Positions 2,937-12,176 of a DNA stretch of 20,140 nt are shown one piece after another. Position numbers and translations under genes: made by a program. Source of the DNA: a virus; the IMG/VR virus record IMGVR_UViG_3300020293_000048, positions 1 to 20,140 of that record; one strand, written 5' to 3'. The notes under the pieces are model-generated. The model did not search any database and was not told the DNA's origin. It saw only the letters and a program-made list of their open reading frames with translations. Every line of letters starts with the position of its first letter. Position 1 is the first letter of the stretch.

Positions 2937-3314
2937 GTGGGAAATATTTTAGAACTAACAGACGAAGCAATAGTCAAACTATTAGAAGCAAAAGAACGAG
3001 ACGGATTTAATTATATTCGTCTTGGTATCACTGGTGGTGGGTGTGCTGGATTTGAGTATATCTTTGATTCAGTAAAAGAAAAAGCACCCGAAGATATTGT
3101 TGTAGATTTTGGTAAACTACAATTTGTTATAGATAAGATAAGTGTTCCTTATATAAATGGTATGACACTAGACTGGAGAAAGGAAGGATTGAATGAAGTA
3201 TTTAAGTTTATCAATCCAAAGGAACAATCCAGTTGTGGTTGTGGAGTATCAATAAATTTTGATTTAGAACAAGTAGAGGTTGACAAAAGTAAAATCTTTG
3301 CAATAGAAGTATGA
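2937..3314 (+). CDS. A-type Fe-S carrier (IscA/HesB family)
   Basis: This 125-aa protein belongs to the IscA/SufA/HesB A-type carriers, which hold and deliver Fe-S clusters to client proteins. The three ligand cysteines are in place: C36 in GGGCAGFEY, then C100 and C102 in SSCGCGVSINF. The fold blocks between them, including a central VVDFGKLQFVID, also match, and the length is normal for the family plus a short C-terminal tail. GTG at 2937 is the only reasonable start: upstream in frame there is a stop at 2904 and otherwise only ATC and ATA. Such genes recur in marine T4-like phages. A radical SAM enzyme (9454-10374) in this window is an obvious possible client, though supply of host Fe-S proteins is equally plausible. 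Confidence 0.88.
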   Translation: MGNILELTDEAIVKLLEAKERDGFNYIRLGITGGGCAGFEYIFDSVKEKAPEDIVVDFGKLQFVIDKISVPYINGMTLDWRKEGLNEVFKFINPKEQSSCGCGVSINFDLEQVEVDKSKIFAIEV

Positions 3315-3656: not shown

Positions 3657-4249
3657 GAACCTTTTCACCCTTCGGGCCACTAATCCATTTGACAAAGATT
3701 GACCCAAAGTATATTGAAGAACTATCAAGTCATATAGATTCAGTTCGAGGTGAAGAAGACAGAGACTACGCAGGTAATCTCGCTGGTCGTATCTATGAAC
3801 AATACACTGTAGAAGATAAAGCTTCCGAAGCATGTAAGAACCATATACTTCGTCATGCACAAACATTTTCTCATGAAGCAGGTATGCAACCTCAACCATT
3901 ACAGATAGATGGGTTGTGGGTCAACATACAAAAAGAAATGGAAGTCAATCCCATGCACGCCCATAGTGGTATGTTGTCATTTGTTTTGTATATAAAAAAT
4001 GATTTAACAAGGGCAGAGACCATAAATAATAAATTCGACAATGCTGGTGATAAAGAACTTGCTGGTATATTAGAATTACATTATGGTGAGGAACAGTTTT
4101 TAAATTGGTCGAAGTATTATCTTTGGCCAGAAGTTGGTGACTTGATAATCTTTCCTTCTTGGTTGAGACATTTTGTCTATCCACATTATGAAGAAGGTAA
4201 AGAAAGAATATCAGTCGCAGGTAATATCAATCCGTTAAATGAGGGATAA
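3641..4249 (+). CDS. 2OG-Fe(II) oxygenase, PF13759-like family
   Basis: The 202-aa product fits the phage and marine bacterial family of putative 2OG-Fe(II) oxygenases (2OG-FeII_Oxy_5 type). Seen in order are W93 with N95 in DGLWVNIQ, the first histidines in NPMHAHSGMLSFVLYI (H106, H108), and GDLIIFPSWLRHFVYPH with the distal His H177, then R189 in KERISVAGNI. As I recall the family, HxH in place of HxD is typical of it and not a defect. The N-terminal half is helical and charged. It overlaps the nuclease gene by 16 nt and is followed at 4254 by the ATP-grasp gene. Its substrate is unknown. With the oxygenase at 52-546 it gives the region two distinct iron-dependent oxidation enzymes. Confidence 0.75.
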   Translation: MQEQIRTFSPFGPLIHLTKIDPKYIEELSSHIDSVRGEEDRDYAGNLAGRIYEQYTVEDKASEACKNHILRHAQTFSHEAGMQPQPLQIDGLWVNIQKEMEVNPMHAHSGMLSFVLYIKNDLTRAETINNKFDNAGDKELAGILELHYGEEQFLNWSKYYLWPEVGDLIIFPSWLRHFVYPHYEEGKERISVAGNINPLNEG

Positions 4250-4253
4250 AAGA

Positions 4254-5663
4254 ATGCGTTCGTTTTCAGAGGTTATCCGAGAGGAAGTCGATAACAAGAA
4301 ACCATATCGCCTAGTGGTGATAGCTGAAAGACGCATGGTCAAGAAAGCAAAAAAGAATTCTGATAAACCTGTTGTCAAGAAACCTTCTTCTACTTCAAGT
4401 AAACTCTACAACCTTGCAAAGGAAGCTGGGTGTAAAGTTTATTCTGTAAAAGTAAACGGTGCATATCTAGAACGAGACGACAATGGTGTCATTACAATCC
4501 ATAACCAAGACGATGAGAAAGGTTTTGAAATGGACGGTGATACAATTGTTATGGTTCGTGGAGCTGTCACTGCAAAAGATTCTTACCTAGATTTAATCTC
4601 ACAAATAGAACGATATGGATTCCCAGTTGTAAACTCTAGGGAGTGTATCGAAGTATGTGCAGATAAGTTCAGAACATATTTGAGATTACAAGAGATTGGT
4701 ATGAACCAACCTCGAACAGTATTAGTTCCAAACGAAGACCCCGAGACTGTAGATATCGCTGCAGAAAGATTAGACAATGAGTTCCCTATGGTTCTCAAAA
4801 CTCTACAAGGTGCAAAGGGTGTTGGAGTTTTACTTGTAGAAACTGAAAGGTCTCTACAATCAACGGTTAGTCTAGTCTACAAGATTGACCCAACATGTGA
4901 TATATTACTACAAGAATATATCGACATGGATTATGATGTCCGTGTAATGATAAACAATAAGAGAGTCATTGGTGCAATGAAGAGGAAAAAAATTATTGAT
5001 GACTTTCGTTCCAATATATCTCAAGGTGCAGAAGCCGAAGAGATAAAACTAACAGACCTAGAAAAAGAAACATGTTTGAGAGCTGCAAAAGCTGTCAATG
5101 GTCAATGGGTTGGTGTTGACTTTATCCCAGCAAAGAACAGGGAGACAGGAGACCCATATATTTTAGAAGTAAATCACTCGCCAGGCACACAAGGAATATC
5201 CGATGCATTAGGTGAAGAAGTATGTGAAACTATAGTCGAAGATTATCACGACAGAGAGATATGGAGGAAGAAGGCAACTGAATGTGGCGTTCTAGAGTCC
5301 ATAGAAGTCGATGGTGAGACGATGACAGTTAAGTTGGACACTGGGAACAGTGCAAACGCATGTGCCCTTCACGCGGACTCCTACGAGGTCAAAGACAAGG
5401 TTGTGGTTTACAAGAGAAATGGTAAGACCCATAAGAAACCTCTCGTAAGAATGATGAAACTTATCAAACCAGCAGAGGAAAGACCTATAGTCAAGTGTGA
5501 GTTAAACTTCTTAAATACTATATATGAGCAAGAAGTAAGTTTAGACCAAAGAGGAAAGATTCCATTTTTGGCAAACAGAGATTTTATGAACAGAGCTAAC
5601 CTAATGATTAATCCCAGTAGGAAGTTCTTATTGACTAATAAACATGACGAAGCAGACGATTAG
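4254..5663 (+). CDS. RimK-like ATP-grasp ligase fused to RimB-type aspartic-protease-like domain
   Basis: ATG 4254 is preferred over the in-frame ATG at 4239 because GAGGGAT (4241-4247) stands 6-7 nt before it; this gives 469 aa. About residues 20-125 form a RimK-like pre-ATP-grasp domain. Residues about 125-335 are ATP-grasp: ADKFRTYLRLQEIG, FPMVLKTLQGAKGVGV (nucleotide-binding loop), LLQEYID, DVRVMI, a Mg site at VGVDFI, and YILEVNHSPGTQGI. Residues about 345-465 resemble the RimB/Zn_protease (PF05618) domain, a retropepsin-like fold, with the catalytic-type motif KLDTGNSANACALHAD (D362) and the closing block FLANRDFMNRANLMINPSRKFL. RimK adds glutamates to the C-terminus of ribosomal protein S6; RimB-type proteins are linked to removal or control. 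Here ligase and putative peptidase are one chain. The target (S6, a phage protein or a small peptide) is inference. Confidence 0.85.
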   Translation: MRSFSEVIREEVDNKKPYRLVVIAERRMVKKAKKNSDKPVVKKPSSTSSKLYNLAKEAGCKVYSVKVNGAYLERDDNGVITIHNQDDEKGFEMDGDTIVMVRGAVTAKDSYLDLISQIERYGFPVVNSRECIEVCADKFRTYLRLQEIGMNQPRTVLVPNEDPETVDIAAERLDNEFPMVLKTLQGAKGVGVLLVETERSLQSTVSLVYKIDPTCDILLQEYIDMDYDVRVMINNKRVIGAMKRKKIIDDFRSNISQGAEAEEIKLTDLEKETCLRAAKAVNGQWVGVDFIPAKNRETGDPYILEVNHSPGTQGISDALGEEVCETIVEDYHDREIWRKKATECGVLESIEVDGETMTVKLDTGNSANACALHADSYEVKDKVVVYKRNGKTHKKPLVRMMKLIKPAEERPIVKCELNFLNTIYEQEVSLDQRGKIPFLANRDFMNRANLMINPSRKFLLTNKHDEADD

Positions 5664-9067: not shown

Positions 9068-9461
9068 TGGTGAAGTTCTTCCTCACAAAGTTTCACAACA
9101 ATCAAAGTTATACGATTCTGTAGAACTACACAAAAACAGAACCGACTTACAAAGGTTTGATATCCCATGGGACTATGTCAACAAAGTCGGTTTTCGTTGG
9201 GACGATAAACTCTATGTCGTCCTCGAAGACGATAAGCTTATCTTTTCAAGATTCAATTTAGAAGACTCGACAGAGTATCCTGTATTCTTTTCTGCATTGG
9301 GTGGAGACCCTAGGTCTACTGTTATTGATAGAGATACGGATAATGCTTATACTCTAATACAAAGTGATAGGTCACCATTTGAAATTGGTGAAGAAATAAA
9401 ATTTAATTATGTTCATGAACAGGGAGACACAGAGAGACATCTCATGGTCGAACATGTCTAG
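9018..9461 (+). CDS. unknown beta-rich protein upstream of the radical SAM gene
   Basis: I choose ATG 9018 (147 aa) because GAGGAAG (9008-9014) precedes it; ATG 9039 (140 aa) and a GTG at 8979 are alternatives in the same frame. It overlaps the end of the EF-hand gene by about 50 nt. The body contains many beta-strand-like stretches (YVNKVGFRWDDKLYVVLEDDKLIFSRF) and a negatively charged tail, and its stop lies inside the next gene's start region. There are no metal-binding or catalytic motifs that I can name. It could be a small virion protein going with the preceding gene, or a partner of the radical SAM/SDR pair; the sequence alone does not decide. Confidence 0.65.
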   Translation: MLKKLTPMLETVDTSINGEVLPHKVSQQSKLYDSVELHKNRTDLQRFDIPWDYVNKVGFRWDDKLYVVLEDDKLIFSRFNLEDSTEYPVFFSALGGDPRSTVIDRDTDNAYTLIQSDRSPFEIGEEIKFNYVHEQGDTERHLMVEHV

Positions 9462-10374
9462 GAACATTCCTATAAATGCTGTAGACCAGTTTGATTTTCT
9501 AGAGCATAGAAGAGAACAGGAAAAGAAACACTGGAATGATAAAAATTTTACTCAACCCCTTGACTCAATTCTTACGGTTGAAATTAATACTACTGAGCTG
9601 TGCAACAGGTCATGTGTCTTTTGTCCAAGACATGACCCAACAGTATTTCCCAACAGGAATCTCCACCTTACAGTTAAGGGTGCTCAAACCATTGCAGAAG
9701 AGTTAGCAGATAATCAATATAATGGTAAAATATCTTTCAGTGGATTTGGAGAGAACCTTCTCAATCCAAACTTCATAGAGATAGTGAAGGAGTTTAGATT
9801 TTATTTACCTACTGCAACATTAGAATGTAATACAAATGGTGATAGACTAACAGAAAAATATATCAATGATTTGTATAGAGCTGGTCTTGATTTGCTTTAC
9901 ATAAATCTTTATGACGGGATAGAACAAATAGAACACTTCGAATCTATGTTGAAAGAAACTAGAGAAGACAGATATAAATTTAGAATGCACTGGGGTGACT
10001 TTGAGAAACATGGATTAATACTTAACAATAGAAGTGGAGTGATAGACTGGGTCGGTGTTGAAGAAAGTGATATCAAATCACTTCAAGGTAAACCATGTCA
10101 TTATCCTTTTTATAAAATGTTTGTAGATTGGAATGGTGATGTCTTATTCTGTTCTAACGATTGGGGAAGAGAACATGTCGTGGGTAATCTTTTGACAATG
10201 TCTCTACATGAAGTTTGGTTCAGTAAACCTATGACAAAGATTCGTAAAAAATTAATGAAAGGAGATAGAAGTTTATCTCCGTGTAATAAATGTAGTGTAG
10301 ACGGTTCGTTATTTGGTAAACCGTCTTTCGATATAGTGAGGAAATATTATGAAGGTGGCAATAACAGGAACTAG
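9454..10374 (+). CDS. radical SAM enzyme with SPASM-type C-terminal cluster domain
   Basis: With the start at ATG 9454 (306 aa; ATG 9409 would add 15 residues) the protein shows the radical SAM motif C50-x3-C54-x2-C57 in TTELCNRSCVFCPRH, which binds the [4Fe-4S] cluster that cleaves S-adenosylmethionine. ISFSGFGENLLNP (93-105) is the GGE-like strand, and ECNTNGD (124-130) is the next conserved strand. The tail carries a SPASM-like Cys pattern: C215, C233 (GDVLFCSNDWG), C277 and C280 (SPCNKC), which would hold an auxiliary Fe-S cluster. Such enzymes often modify peptides, sugars or aminoglycoside-like compounds. The next gene (SDR) overlaps by 26 nt, arguing for a joint pathway. The IscA-like protein at 2937 may supply its clusters (inference). 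Confidence 0.9.
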   Translation: MSRNIPINAVDQFDFLEHRREQEKKHWNDKNFTQPLDSILTVEINTTELCNRSCVFCPRHDPTVFPNRNLHLTVKGAQTIAEELADNQYNGKISFSGFGENLLNPNFIEIVKEFRFYLPTATLECNTNGDRLTEKYINDLYRAGLDLLYINLYDGIEQIEHFESMLKETREDRYKFRMHWGDFEKHGLILNNRSGVIDWVGVEESDIKSLQGKPCHYPFYKMFVDWNGDVLFCSNDWGREHVVGNLLTMSLHEVWFSKPMTKIRKKLMKGDRSLSPCNKCSVDGSLFGKPSFDIVRKYYEGGNNRN

Positions 10375-10942
10375 TGGTCTTGCAAGAGTAATCAAAGATA
10401 AACTAGAAGAACAAGATATAAAGGTATCTACTCCAAGAGTTGAAGACCTTACAATGAACGGAACTAACTGGTGGGGATTTGATTCTAATAATTCTAATCA
10501 TGTAGATGTTCTAATTAACTTTGCACACAAAGGTTTTGAACAAACTAGGATTTTAGATATCACACACCAAGCATGGAAAGAAGACCGAAGTAAATATCTA
10601 ATTAATTTCAGTTCTCGAGCAGCTCAACCAAACATATCTAAAGGTCATGTTTATGCAGCTGAAAAAGCTGCACTTAATCACCTTGCAAATAATCTAACTT
10701 ATAATTCTGACAGACAATACAAAATGACAACTTTGAATCTAGGTCTTTTGAACAATGACGACTTACCAAGTTTATCTCATGGAGAAGTTGCAGAATTAGT
10801 TTCATGGTTGATTGCAAATCCAAAGATAGAAATTACAGACATGACTGTGTCTGCACATGCAAACTATATAGAAGTTCAGAATGATAAACAGACACTACTG
10901 GAACTAGAAAAAGATTTCCTTAAATTCAATAAAGATAATTAA
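10349..10942 (+). CDS. short-chain dehydrogenase/reductase family protein
   Basis: The 197-aa product has the SDR layout: a Rossmann opening MKVAITGTSGLARVI (T6-G7-x-x-G10), an NFAH block at 57-60 in the NNAG position, the catalytic-type serines in INFSSRAAQP (S88, S89), and YAAEK (Y102, K106) as the active-site YxxxK. It is about 50 residues shorter than a classical SDR, mostly in the substrate-binding C-terminal part and in the loop after the first strand. It is therefore minimal but has its catalytic residues, so it may be an active NAD(P)-dependent oxidoreductase. GAGGAA (10338-10343) is a good Shine-Dalgarno site before the ATG. Overlap with the radical SAM gene suggests that they act on the same compound. 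Confidence 0.85.
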   Translation: MKVAITGTSGLARVIKDKLEEQDIKVSTPRVEDLTMNGTNWWGFDSNNSNHVDVLINFAHKGFEQTRILDITHQAWKEDRSKYLINFSSRAAQPNISKGHVYAAEKAALNHLANNLTYNSDRQYKMTTLNLGLLNNDDLPSLSHGEVAELVSWLIANPKIEITDMTVSAHANYIEVQNDKQTLLELEKDFLKFNKDN

Positions 10943-11015: not shown

Positions 11016-12176
11016 ATGCACAGCACAATTATTGGTATAAGAAATAAAATCATGTGGGCGGGGTATCGTTTAATGAGACCTCTTATATTCCTTATGGAAC
11101 CCGAACAAGCTCATTACTCTTTGAAGAGAGTAGGTGTATTCTTGGGCAGTAATCCTATCACTAGAGGATTAACAAGTTTACTCATGGACTACAATCATAA
11201 GAGTCTAAACATAGAGGTTGACGGTATCCAGTATAGGAACCCCGTAGGTTTATCAGCAGGATTCGATAAGGACGGAGAGTTAGGAAAGATATATCCTTCA
11301 ATGGGATTTGGTCTTGCAGAACTTGGTTCGTTCACTGGAGAAGTTTGCCCAGGCAACCCAGGCAAGAGATTATTCAGAATGATTAAGTCTAAAGCTATTG
11401 TTGTATGGTATGGTCTGAATAACGAAGGTGCAGAAAAGATATCTTCACGACTAAAAGACTTTGACTTTGGAAGACTTAAGGTCGGTATCAATGCAGCCAA
11501 CTCTAACTTAACACCCGAGTTTATATTAGAAGATTCTATCAGTGATTACCTCAAGACAATGAAAGCATTCAAAGATGTAGGAGACTATTACGATATCAAT
11601 ATCAGTTGTCCTAATACTCAAGAGGGTGAACCGTTTGTAGACAAAGACAATCTATGTGAATTACTTTGTGCAGTCAATGAAGAGATTAGACCTATCAGTG
11701 ATAAACCAATTTATATAAAACTTGCAGCCGACATGACGATAGACGAAATCAATACTATTGTAGATACAAGTATGGAACATGGTATAGACGGATTTGTTTG
11801 CACTAACCTTGCAAAACCACAATTCAATACTGAACATAGACCCGAAGAATATCCTACAGTAGACGGTAGACTTCCAGCTGGTAAGGGTGCAATGAGTGGG
11901 CAACCTCTATCAAGAATATCTACAGATGTTATTCGACATGTATACAGACGAACTAAAGGTAAAGTGACTATCATTGGAGTGGGCGGAATCTTTAGTGCAA
12001 AAGACGCTTACGAAAAGATTACATCAGGTGCAAGTTTACTTCACATGATTACCACAATGATATTTGACGGCCCACAAAATATCAATGAGATTAACAGAGG
12101 TCTAGTCAAACTACTCAAGAAAGACGGGTTCAATTCTATAGGAGAAGCTGTAGGTTCACGCAATCCATTACTATAA
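11016..12176 (+). CDS. class 2 (membrane-type) dihydroorotate dehydrogenase homologue
   Basis: This 386-aa protein aligns along its length with class 2 PyrD, the quinone-linked FMN enzyme of pyrimidine synthesis. It has the membrane-docking N-terminus with MEPEQAH (27-33), NPVGLSAGFDKDGE (75-88), INISCPNT (194-201), SGQPLSRISTDVIR (294-307), and the FMN phosphate loop TIIGVGGIFSAKDAYEKITSGASLLHM. The E. coli catalytic base Ser175 (NISSPNT) is replaced by C198, as in class 1 enzymes. The orotate-contacting Asn in NRMGFNN is replaced by V130 (VVWYGLNN), and TNTT is TNLA (264 onward). The fold is clear; activity on dihydroorotate is not guaranteed. By family it would act at the inner membrane. 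It is preceded by its own gap and a good Shine-Dalgarno site. Confidence 0.88.
   Translation: MHSTIIGIRNKIMWAGYRLMRPLIFLMEPEQAHYSLKRVGVFLGSNPITRGLTSLLMDYNHKSLNIEVDGIQYRNPVGLSAGFDKDGELGKIYPSMGFGLAELGSFTGEVCPGNPGKRLFRMIKSKAIVVWYGLNNEGAEKISSRLKDFDFGRLKVGINAANSNLTPEFILEDSISDYLKTMKAFKDVGDYYDINISCPNTQEGEPFVDKDNLCELLCAVNEEIRPISDKPIYIKLAADMTIDEINTIVDTSMEHGIDGFVCTNLAKPQFNTEHRPEEYPTVDGRLPAGKGAMSGQPLSRISTDVIRHVYRRTKGKVTIIGVGGIFSAKDAYEKITSGASLLHMITTMIFDGPQNINEINRGLVKLLKKDGFNSIGEAVGSRNPLL

Follow-up and report, generated by a model that had tools for sequence, protein, structure and literature searches.

A DHODH-like flavoenzyme gene of a marine T4-like phage, its altered active site, and a possible link to host respiration

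The class 2 DHODH enzymes include E. coli PyrD, human DHODH, and M. tuberculosis PyrD. The class 1A and 1B enzymes, such as L. lactis PyrDA and PyrDB, use a Cys base within an NISCPN motif. A Cys base has also been described in class II DHODs of anaerobic fungi (A. robustus, S. japonicus, and D. bruxellensis Ura9; PMC8520639), which are proven pyrimidine enzymes with isolated Ser-to-Cys changes and are likened here by their published description. Among phages, pyrimidine genes (PMC11360552) and viral electron-transport genes (PMC4053976) have been reported in surveys. T4-like marine phages with Fe-S carriers, radical SAM genes, and SAR86 links were already known (PMC5332604); the available part of that report makes no mention of DHODH or respiratory-chain genes.

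The window, which is the whole stretch of DNA that was analysed (an IMG/VR virus record, 20,140 bases), comes from a marine T4-like phage. It contains T4-like replication genes, including a gp32-type single-strand binding protein, a helicase loader, and an exonuclease (PHROGs), and an RNase H (Pfam). As far as the available part of PMC5332604 goes, the window resembles those phages in its T4-like replication genes, its A-type Fe-S carrier, and its radical SAM gene, with a DHODH-like protein nearest to SAR86 (79%). This protein shares with the class 2 enzymes the predicted fold, the N-terminal helical docking domain, the equivalents of Lys66, Asn172, Asn177, Asn246, Arg102, and His19, and scores above the TIGR01036 and NF003652 cutoffs. 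It differs from them by four changes (Ser175 to Cys, Asn111 to Val, Thr247 to Leu, and Tyr318 to Ile) and by its separate clade, a member of which accompanies a canonical PyrD in most carriers tested. The Cys base is a likeness to the class 1A/1B and the fungal enzymes; whereas the fungal change is isolated, the Cys of the phage protein is one of four changes fixed together in a paralogue clade of prokaryotes and phages. Where marine viruses are said to boost pyrimidine synthesis, the claims rest on DHODH annotation, and a clade that passes the class 2 cutoffs with a different pocket and genome context would make such claims wrong for its members. The open-access papers searched contained no account of this clade, of a coupling between its members and pseudoazurin or cytochrome b, of a phage pseudoazurin, or of a cytochrome bc1 carried by phages as an AMG.

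Predicted fold and class assignment

The DHODH-like gene lies at 11016..12176 on the + strand. It encodes 386 aa from an ATG start without an internal stop, and GGAG is found upstream. The protein scored 197 bits against Pfam PF01180, 282 bits against the class 2 pyrD profile TIGR01036 (cutoff 200), and 318 bits against the quinone-dependent DHODH profile NF003652 (cutoff 267); the cutoffs of several narrower PRK05286 models were not reached. An AlphaFold model, built on 40 relatives, had a mean pLDDT of 88.7. Superposition of model residues 9-384 on the human DHODH chain 30-395 gave a Z of 48.7 and an rmsd of 1.7 over 354 aligned residues, the N-terminal helices included. These helices (residues 2-57; 11019..11186, +) superposed on the human N-terminal domain and correspond to the class 2 membrane-docking region. 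The predicted class 2 architecture is well supported, because the class 2 profile cutoffs are passed and the model matches human DHODH including the N-terminal helices. The profiles and the superposition thus bear out the initial annotation, which had read a class 2 sequence with an N-terminal docking segment.

A phylogenetic tree placed the class 1 sequences in a separate group (support 100), with the DHODH-like protein outside. The Asn is present in most of the class 1 sequences (INA/LNS), whose length leaves no room for the N-terminal domain. The phage protein has the class 1 Cys base (C198 in NISCPNT), but does not group with class 1, and contains the N-terminal domain. A class 1 enzyme with an added N-terminus was ruled out by the tree and the profile scores. 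Among the matches listed from the BFVD viral structures, there was no DHODH-like match.

Active-site substitutions

Alignment to E. coli PyrD showed that S175 is replaced by C198 (11607..11609, +), N111-R112 by V130-W131 (11403..11408, +), F115 by L134, and T247-T248 by L265-A266 (11808..11813, +), so that TNTT becomes TNLA. The Val, the Cys at the base position, and the TNLA had all been read in the initial annotation, and the alignment places C198 on Ser175 and not elsewhere. A further change, beyond those noted before, replaces Y318 (human Tyr356) by I345 (12048..12050, +). The residues K66, N172, N177, K217, N246, R102, and H19 are kept, as K85, N195, N200, K235, N264, R121, and H33 in the phage protein. 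In class 1A structures, the Asn at the N111 position touches the orotate carboxylate, and the residue at the T247 position touches the orotate ring. The orotate-binding set is thus incomplete in the phage protein: N172, N177, N246, and K66 are retained (4/6), and N111 and T247 are V130 and L265. The Ser catalytic base of class 2 is absent, and C198 stands in its place. On the quinone side, the equivalents of R102 and H19 are present and Y318 is gone. The retained R121 (11376..11378, +; E. coli R102, human R136) is conserved at a position that we take to be part of the quinone/inhibitor tunnel. The human counterparts of N111, S175, and Y318 (Asn145, Ser215, and Tyr356) are given as active-site residues (PMC12197698).

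V130, C198, L265, and I345 are invariant in the aligned relatives (6 phage and 43 proteobacterial), and 91-100% conserved across 22 relatives from Patescibacteria and DPANN archaea. The canonical class 2 sequences have N/S/T/Y at positions 111/175/247/318 in 31/31 cases. Since the substitutions are invariant in relatives, chance or sequencing error was ruled out as their source. The phage copies showed dN of about 0.07-0.2, with dS above 1 and often saturated, which indicates purifying selection.

The paralogue clade and its pyrimidine context

The clade was defined by V/C/L/I at E. coli positions 111/175/247/318, together with grouping when those columns were left out; the window protein has these residues and groups accordingly. 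With the signature columns and four neighbouring columns removed, the clade was still recovered as one group (SH-aLRT 96%). It lies beside canonical class 2, and class 1 is separate at 100. Relatives were found at 20 IMG/VR loci, and those spanning most of the protein are 74-85% identical. The nearest cellular relatives are from SAR86 (79 and 78% identity), followed by Porticoccaceae, Vibrio, Thaumasiovibrio, Moritella, and Pseudoalteromonas (73-78%), by Thioglobus, Hydrogenovibrio, Tritonibacter, and others (59-65%), and by Patescibacteria and DPANN archaea (43-49%). Among 185 genomes taken as the class of genome G004, only G004 itself and one 48% match exceeded 45% identity. In isolated phages, the pyrD matches were only distant (33% or less), and some resemble host sequence. 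Ordinary-looking pyrD matches, which are possibly host sequence, came from three records that bear Staphylococcus or Salmonella phage names and have unusual lengths (OR850117, OR844989, and OR851520).

A phage-specific innovation was ruled out by the cellular relatives with the same substitutions; these are an ancestral trait of the paralogue family. The initial annotation had held that close cellular class 2 enzymes with the same substitutions and normal activity would speak against it; of the two, the shared substitutions were found in close cellular enzymes. The SAR86 copies are nested among the phage copies, and phage monophyly was not rejected (p-AU 0.168). The tree is compatible with transfer between phage and SAR86 in either direction. 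Taken as a whole, the clade is a little-studied side branch of DHODH with a consistently altered active site.

A second DHODH was searched for in 26 carrier genomes, of which 18 are proteobacterial. All 18 proteobacterial carriers have a second, canonical DHODH, which is class 2 in 14 and class 1 in 4 (Thioglobus-like and Thiomicrospira/Hydrogenovibrio). The canonical SAR86 PyrDs are quite different proteins from the clade members. In three Patescibacteria (G020, G022, and G023), pyrB and pyrE have a class 1 PyrD gene at a distance of at most about 5 kb, and the clade member is at another locus. In three others (G019, G021, and G025), the clade member is present and no pyrB or pyrE scored over the cutoff; these are MAGs of uncertain completeness. 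The same searches found no pyrB and no clear pyrE in a SAR86 MAG (G001), so the absence of these genes from MAGs is weak evidence. In a Woesearchaeota genome (G024), pyrB and a weak pyrE are present and the clade enzyme is the only clear DHODH, and for these reasons the clade enzyme could be the orotate-making DHODH there. With this possible exception, a role in de novo pyrimidine synthesis fits the family poorly, since the members examined are extra genes, lie outside the pyr loci, or occur without detected pyrB/pyrE. Judged from sequence, the clade member is probably distinct from the ordinary pyrimidine DHODH, because a normal DHODH stands alongside it in Proteobacteria and the Patescibacteria pyr loci point the same way.

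Gene neighbourhoods and possible function

Respiratory genes were found in 6/21 DHODH-bearing phage contigs, on at least four branches; most of the contigs are fragments. In one contig, the order is NuoB, cytochrome b, and DHODH-like gene, with NuoB and cytochrome b just upstream and an ATGA overlap between them (L030). In another, the order is NuoB, SufB, cytochrome b, and DHODH-like gene (L031), and a third contains NuoB and SufB (L032). In L025, the end of the DHODH-like gene and a pseudoazurin gene share an ATGA overlap; L033 has a further pseudoazurin about 1.6 kb from the DHODH-like gene. The NuoB, the SufB, and one pseudoazurin passed NCBIfam cutoffs, and the cytochrome b passed Pfam cutoffs. 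In contig G040, the neighbour of a pseudoazurin is a protein that combines an N-terminal membrane segment with a CXXCH cytochrome c domain (PF00034, 32.7 bits). This pair (L167 60-503 and 506-934) is next to T4-like gp43, gp46, and gp47 genes, recognised by eye, and the DHODH-like gene is at the opposite end of the contig. Among the ORFs of the window that were scanned, no respiratory genes were seen. In cells, Pseudoalteromonas copies are near cyoAB, and that of an alphaproteobacterial MAG is near sdhA. No conserved cellular operon was found, as the neighbours vary by lineage.

In the window itself, a radical SAM/SPASM protein is encoded upstream on the same strand (9409..10374, +). A weakly SDR-like protein (10349..10942, +; 22 bits to a FabG-like PHROG) is also encoded upstream, and 73 bases separate its end from the DHODH-like gene. 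In the other phages seen, this pair did not recur as a neighbour. An A-type Fe-S carrier (2937..3314, +; TIGR00049 over cutoff) has relatives in two other DHODH-bearing phage contigs. Elsewhere in the window, the N- and C-terminal halves of a carbamoyltransferase are on two overlapping ORFs (1101-2312 and 2290-2925), and a relative in contig G043 (L165 5294-7105) is a single 604-aa ORF; the split may be a frameshift, an assembly error, or a true split. A RimK-like ATP-grasp ligase at 4239-5663, the C-terminal part of which is weakly zinc-protease-like, has a 32% relative in phage contig G044.

Because the pocket is altered, the gene is a paralogue, and the phage neighbours are respiratory, the simplest reading is a membrane flavin dehydrogenase that would feed the host chain. 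The favoured explanation, to which a probability of about one half is given, is a membrane-docked flavoenzyme that acts on a substrate other than dihydroorotate and delivers electrons to the respiratory chain of the infected host, probably via quinone. The gene product would be an FMN dehydrogenase of the DHODH paralogue clade, separate from the housekeeping PyrD. Model and alignment suggest that the class 2 fold, the docking domain, and most FMN and ring-binding residues are kept. The substrate pocket would have lost Asn111 and Thr247, with Cys acting as the base and Ile replacing the Tyr between flavin and quinone, and the substrate oxidised is most likely not dihydroorotate. Electrons would then be passed to the host respiratory chain, probably via quinone; the docking domain and the conserved R121 and H33 are counted in support. 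The enzyme probably serves host respiration, since its active site is altered and related phages carry the gene next to respiratory-chain genes. During infection, it might work jointly with the phage-borne NuoB, cytochrome b, cytochrome c, pseudoazurin, and SufB seen in relatives, and respiratory electron flow might be kept up or redirected. We infer both the step from structure to quinone and the step from gene neighbours to a shared function. Counted against this explanation are the low share of phage contigs with respiratory neighbours and the varied cellular neighbourhoods. A respiratory chain is believed to be missing from many Patescibacteria, and Tyr318 at the flavin/quinone interface is lost, so the acceptor may be something other than quinone in part of the family.

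The main alternative is that the phage has a DHODH isoenzyme whose kinetics or electron acceptor (free flavin, fumarate, or another oxidant) differ from the usual, and with it would speed up pyrimidine synthesis or free it from the respiratory state of the host. It is a serious possibility, of lower probability than the favoured one. Dihydroorotate may still fit the pocket, because N172, N177, N246, and Lys66 are conserved (phage K85, N195, N200, and N264). The scores above the NCBIfam class 2 cutoffs also count in favour of this rival. In fungi, anaerobic pyrimidine synthesis is supported by class II DHODs that carry Cys at the base position; S. japonicus Ura9 needed the Cys for its anaerobic function, and one Cys-type enzyme uses free FAD or FMN (PMC8520639). 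UMP synthesis is also among the pathways fully covered by AMGs in marine virus surveys (PMC11360552). However, N111, T247, and Y318 are changed too, which S-to-C alone does not require, and S263C alone gave K. marxianus Ura9 no anaerobic function (PMC8520639). Moreover, the gene is an extra one beside a normal DHODH in 18/18 proteobacterial carriers, lies outside the Patescibacteria pyr loci, and is present where pyrB and pyrE were not found. The proposal in the initial annotation that the enzyme alters the way infected cells drive pyrimidine synthesis is therefore not favoured, as the close cellular relatives are extra genes beside a normal PyrD, some without detected pyrB/pyrE. Its other proposal, a different substrate, fits better than the pyrimidine reading, although it is not proven.

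A fumarate- or C4-acid-linked redox enzyme, for example one that reduces fumarate with electrons from another donor, appears improbable. In a Woesearchaeota contig, a malic-enzyme homologue overlaps the gene by GTGA and a FrdA/SdhA-like gene is present; malate dehydrogenase and malic enzyme are downstream in Thioglobus, PEP carboxylase is nearby in a Peregrinibacterium, and sdhA in the alphaproteobacterial MAG. However, the association is inconsistent, with lactate dehydrogenase, enolase, and unrelated genes as other neighbours, and several neighbour pairs are on opposite strands. A supposed malate dehydrogenase neighbour in Peribacteria was rejected, and the idea is weakened because its profile prefers L-lactate dehydrogenase. 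Least probable is the chance acquisition of a host PyrD with neutral substitutions and no special role. The SAR86 copies do branch with the phage copies, but dN is low against saturated dS, the substitutions are near-invariant clade-wide, and the canonical SAR86 PyrDs (L142 and L144) are quite different.

Returning to the flavoenzyme that would feed the host chain, a wider form of this explanation is tentative and rather unlikely. Marine T4-like phages would carry a mobile respiratory kit, in which a DHODH-like enzyme with a new substrate feeds a chain patched with phage NuoB, cytochrome b, cytochrome c, and pseudoazurin, and the phage would control host respiration. If this were true, the viral clade genes annotated as pyrD would be misannotated. 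For the search for a new quinone- or flavin-linked substrate, the clade offers enzymes that can be tested, some of them from culturable Vibrio and Pseudoalteromonas. The occurrence of the gene together with cytochrome b, NuoB, cytochrome c, and pseudoazurin suggests that heterotroph phages target respiration directly, in parallel to the photosynthesis genes of cyanophages.

Several further genes were observed around these loci. Beside the pseudoazurin and/or the DHODH-like gene, several loci (L025 7602-7883, L022 starting at about 5400, and L273 5402) encode a small protein that has a single likely membrane segment and no confident family match. Vibrio, Pseudoalteromonas, and relatives share a conserved gene of ~210 aa without a Pfam match, which adjoins the DHODH-like gene in divergent orientation (L053 2226-2864 and 19 loci like it). 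Relatives of the bc1-type cytochrome b (about 50-67% identity) occur at 76 loci called viral (L196-L271), among which cellular contamination is possible; in many of them, the surrounding few kilobases also hold T4-like genes for gp32, RNase H, a helicase, or a polymerase. Pseudoazurin-like genes are near cytochrome b in four marine viral contigs (L226 10075, L251 3079, L252 5547, and L256 1), and a T4-type RNase H is close by in three of them.
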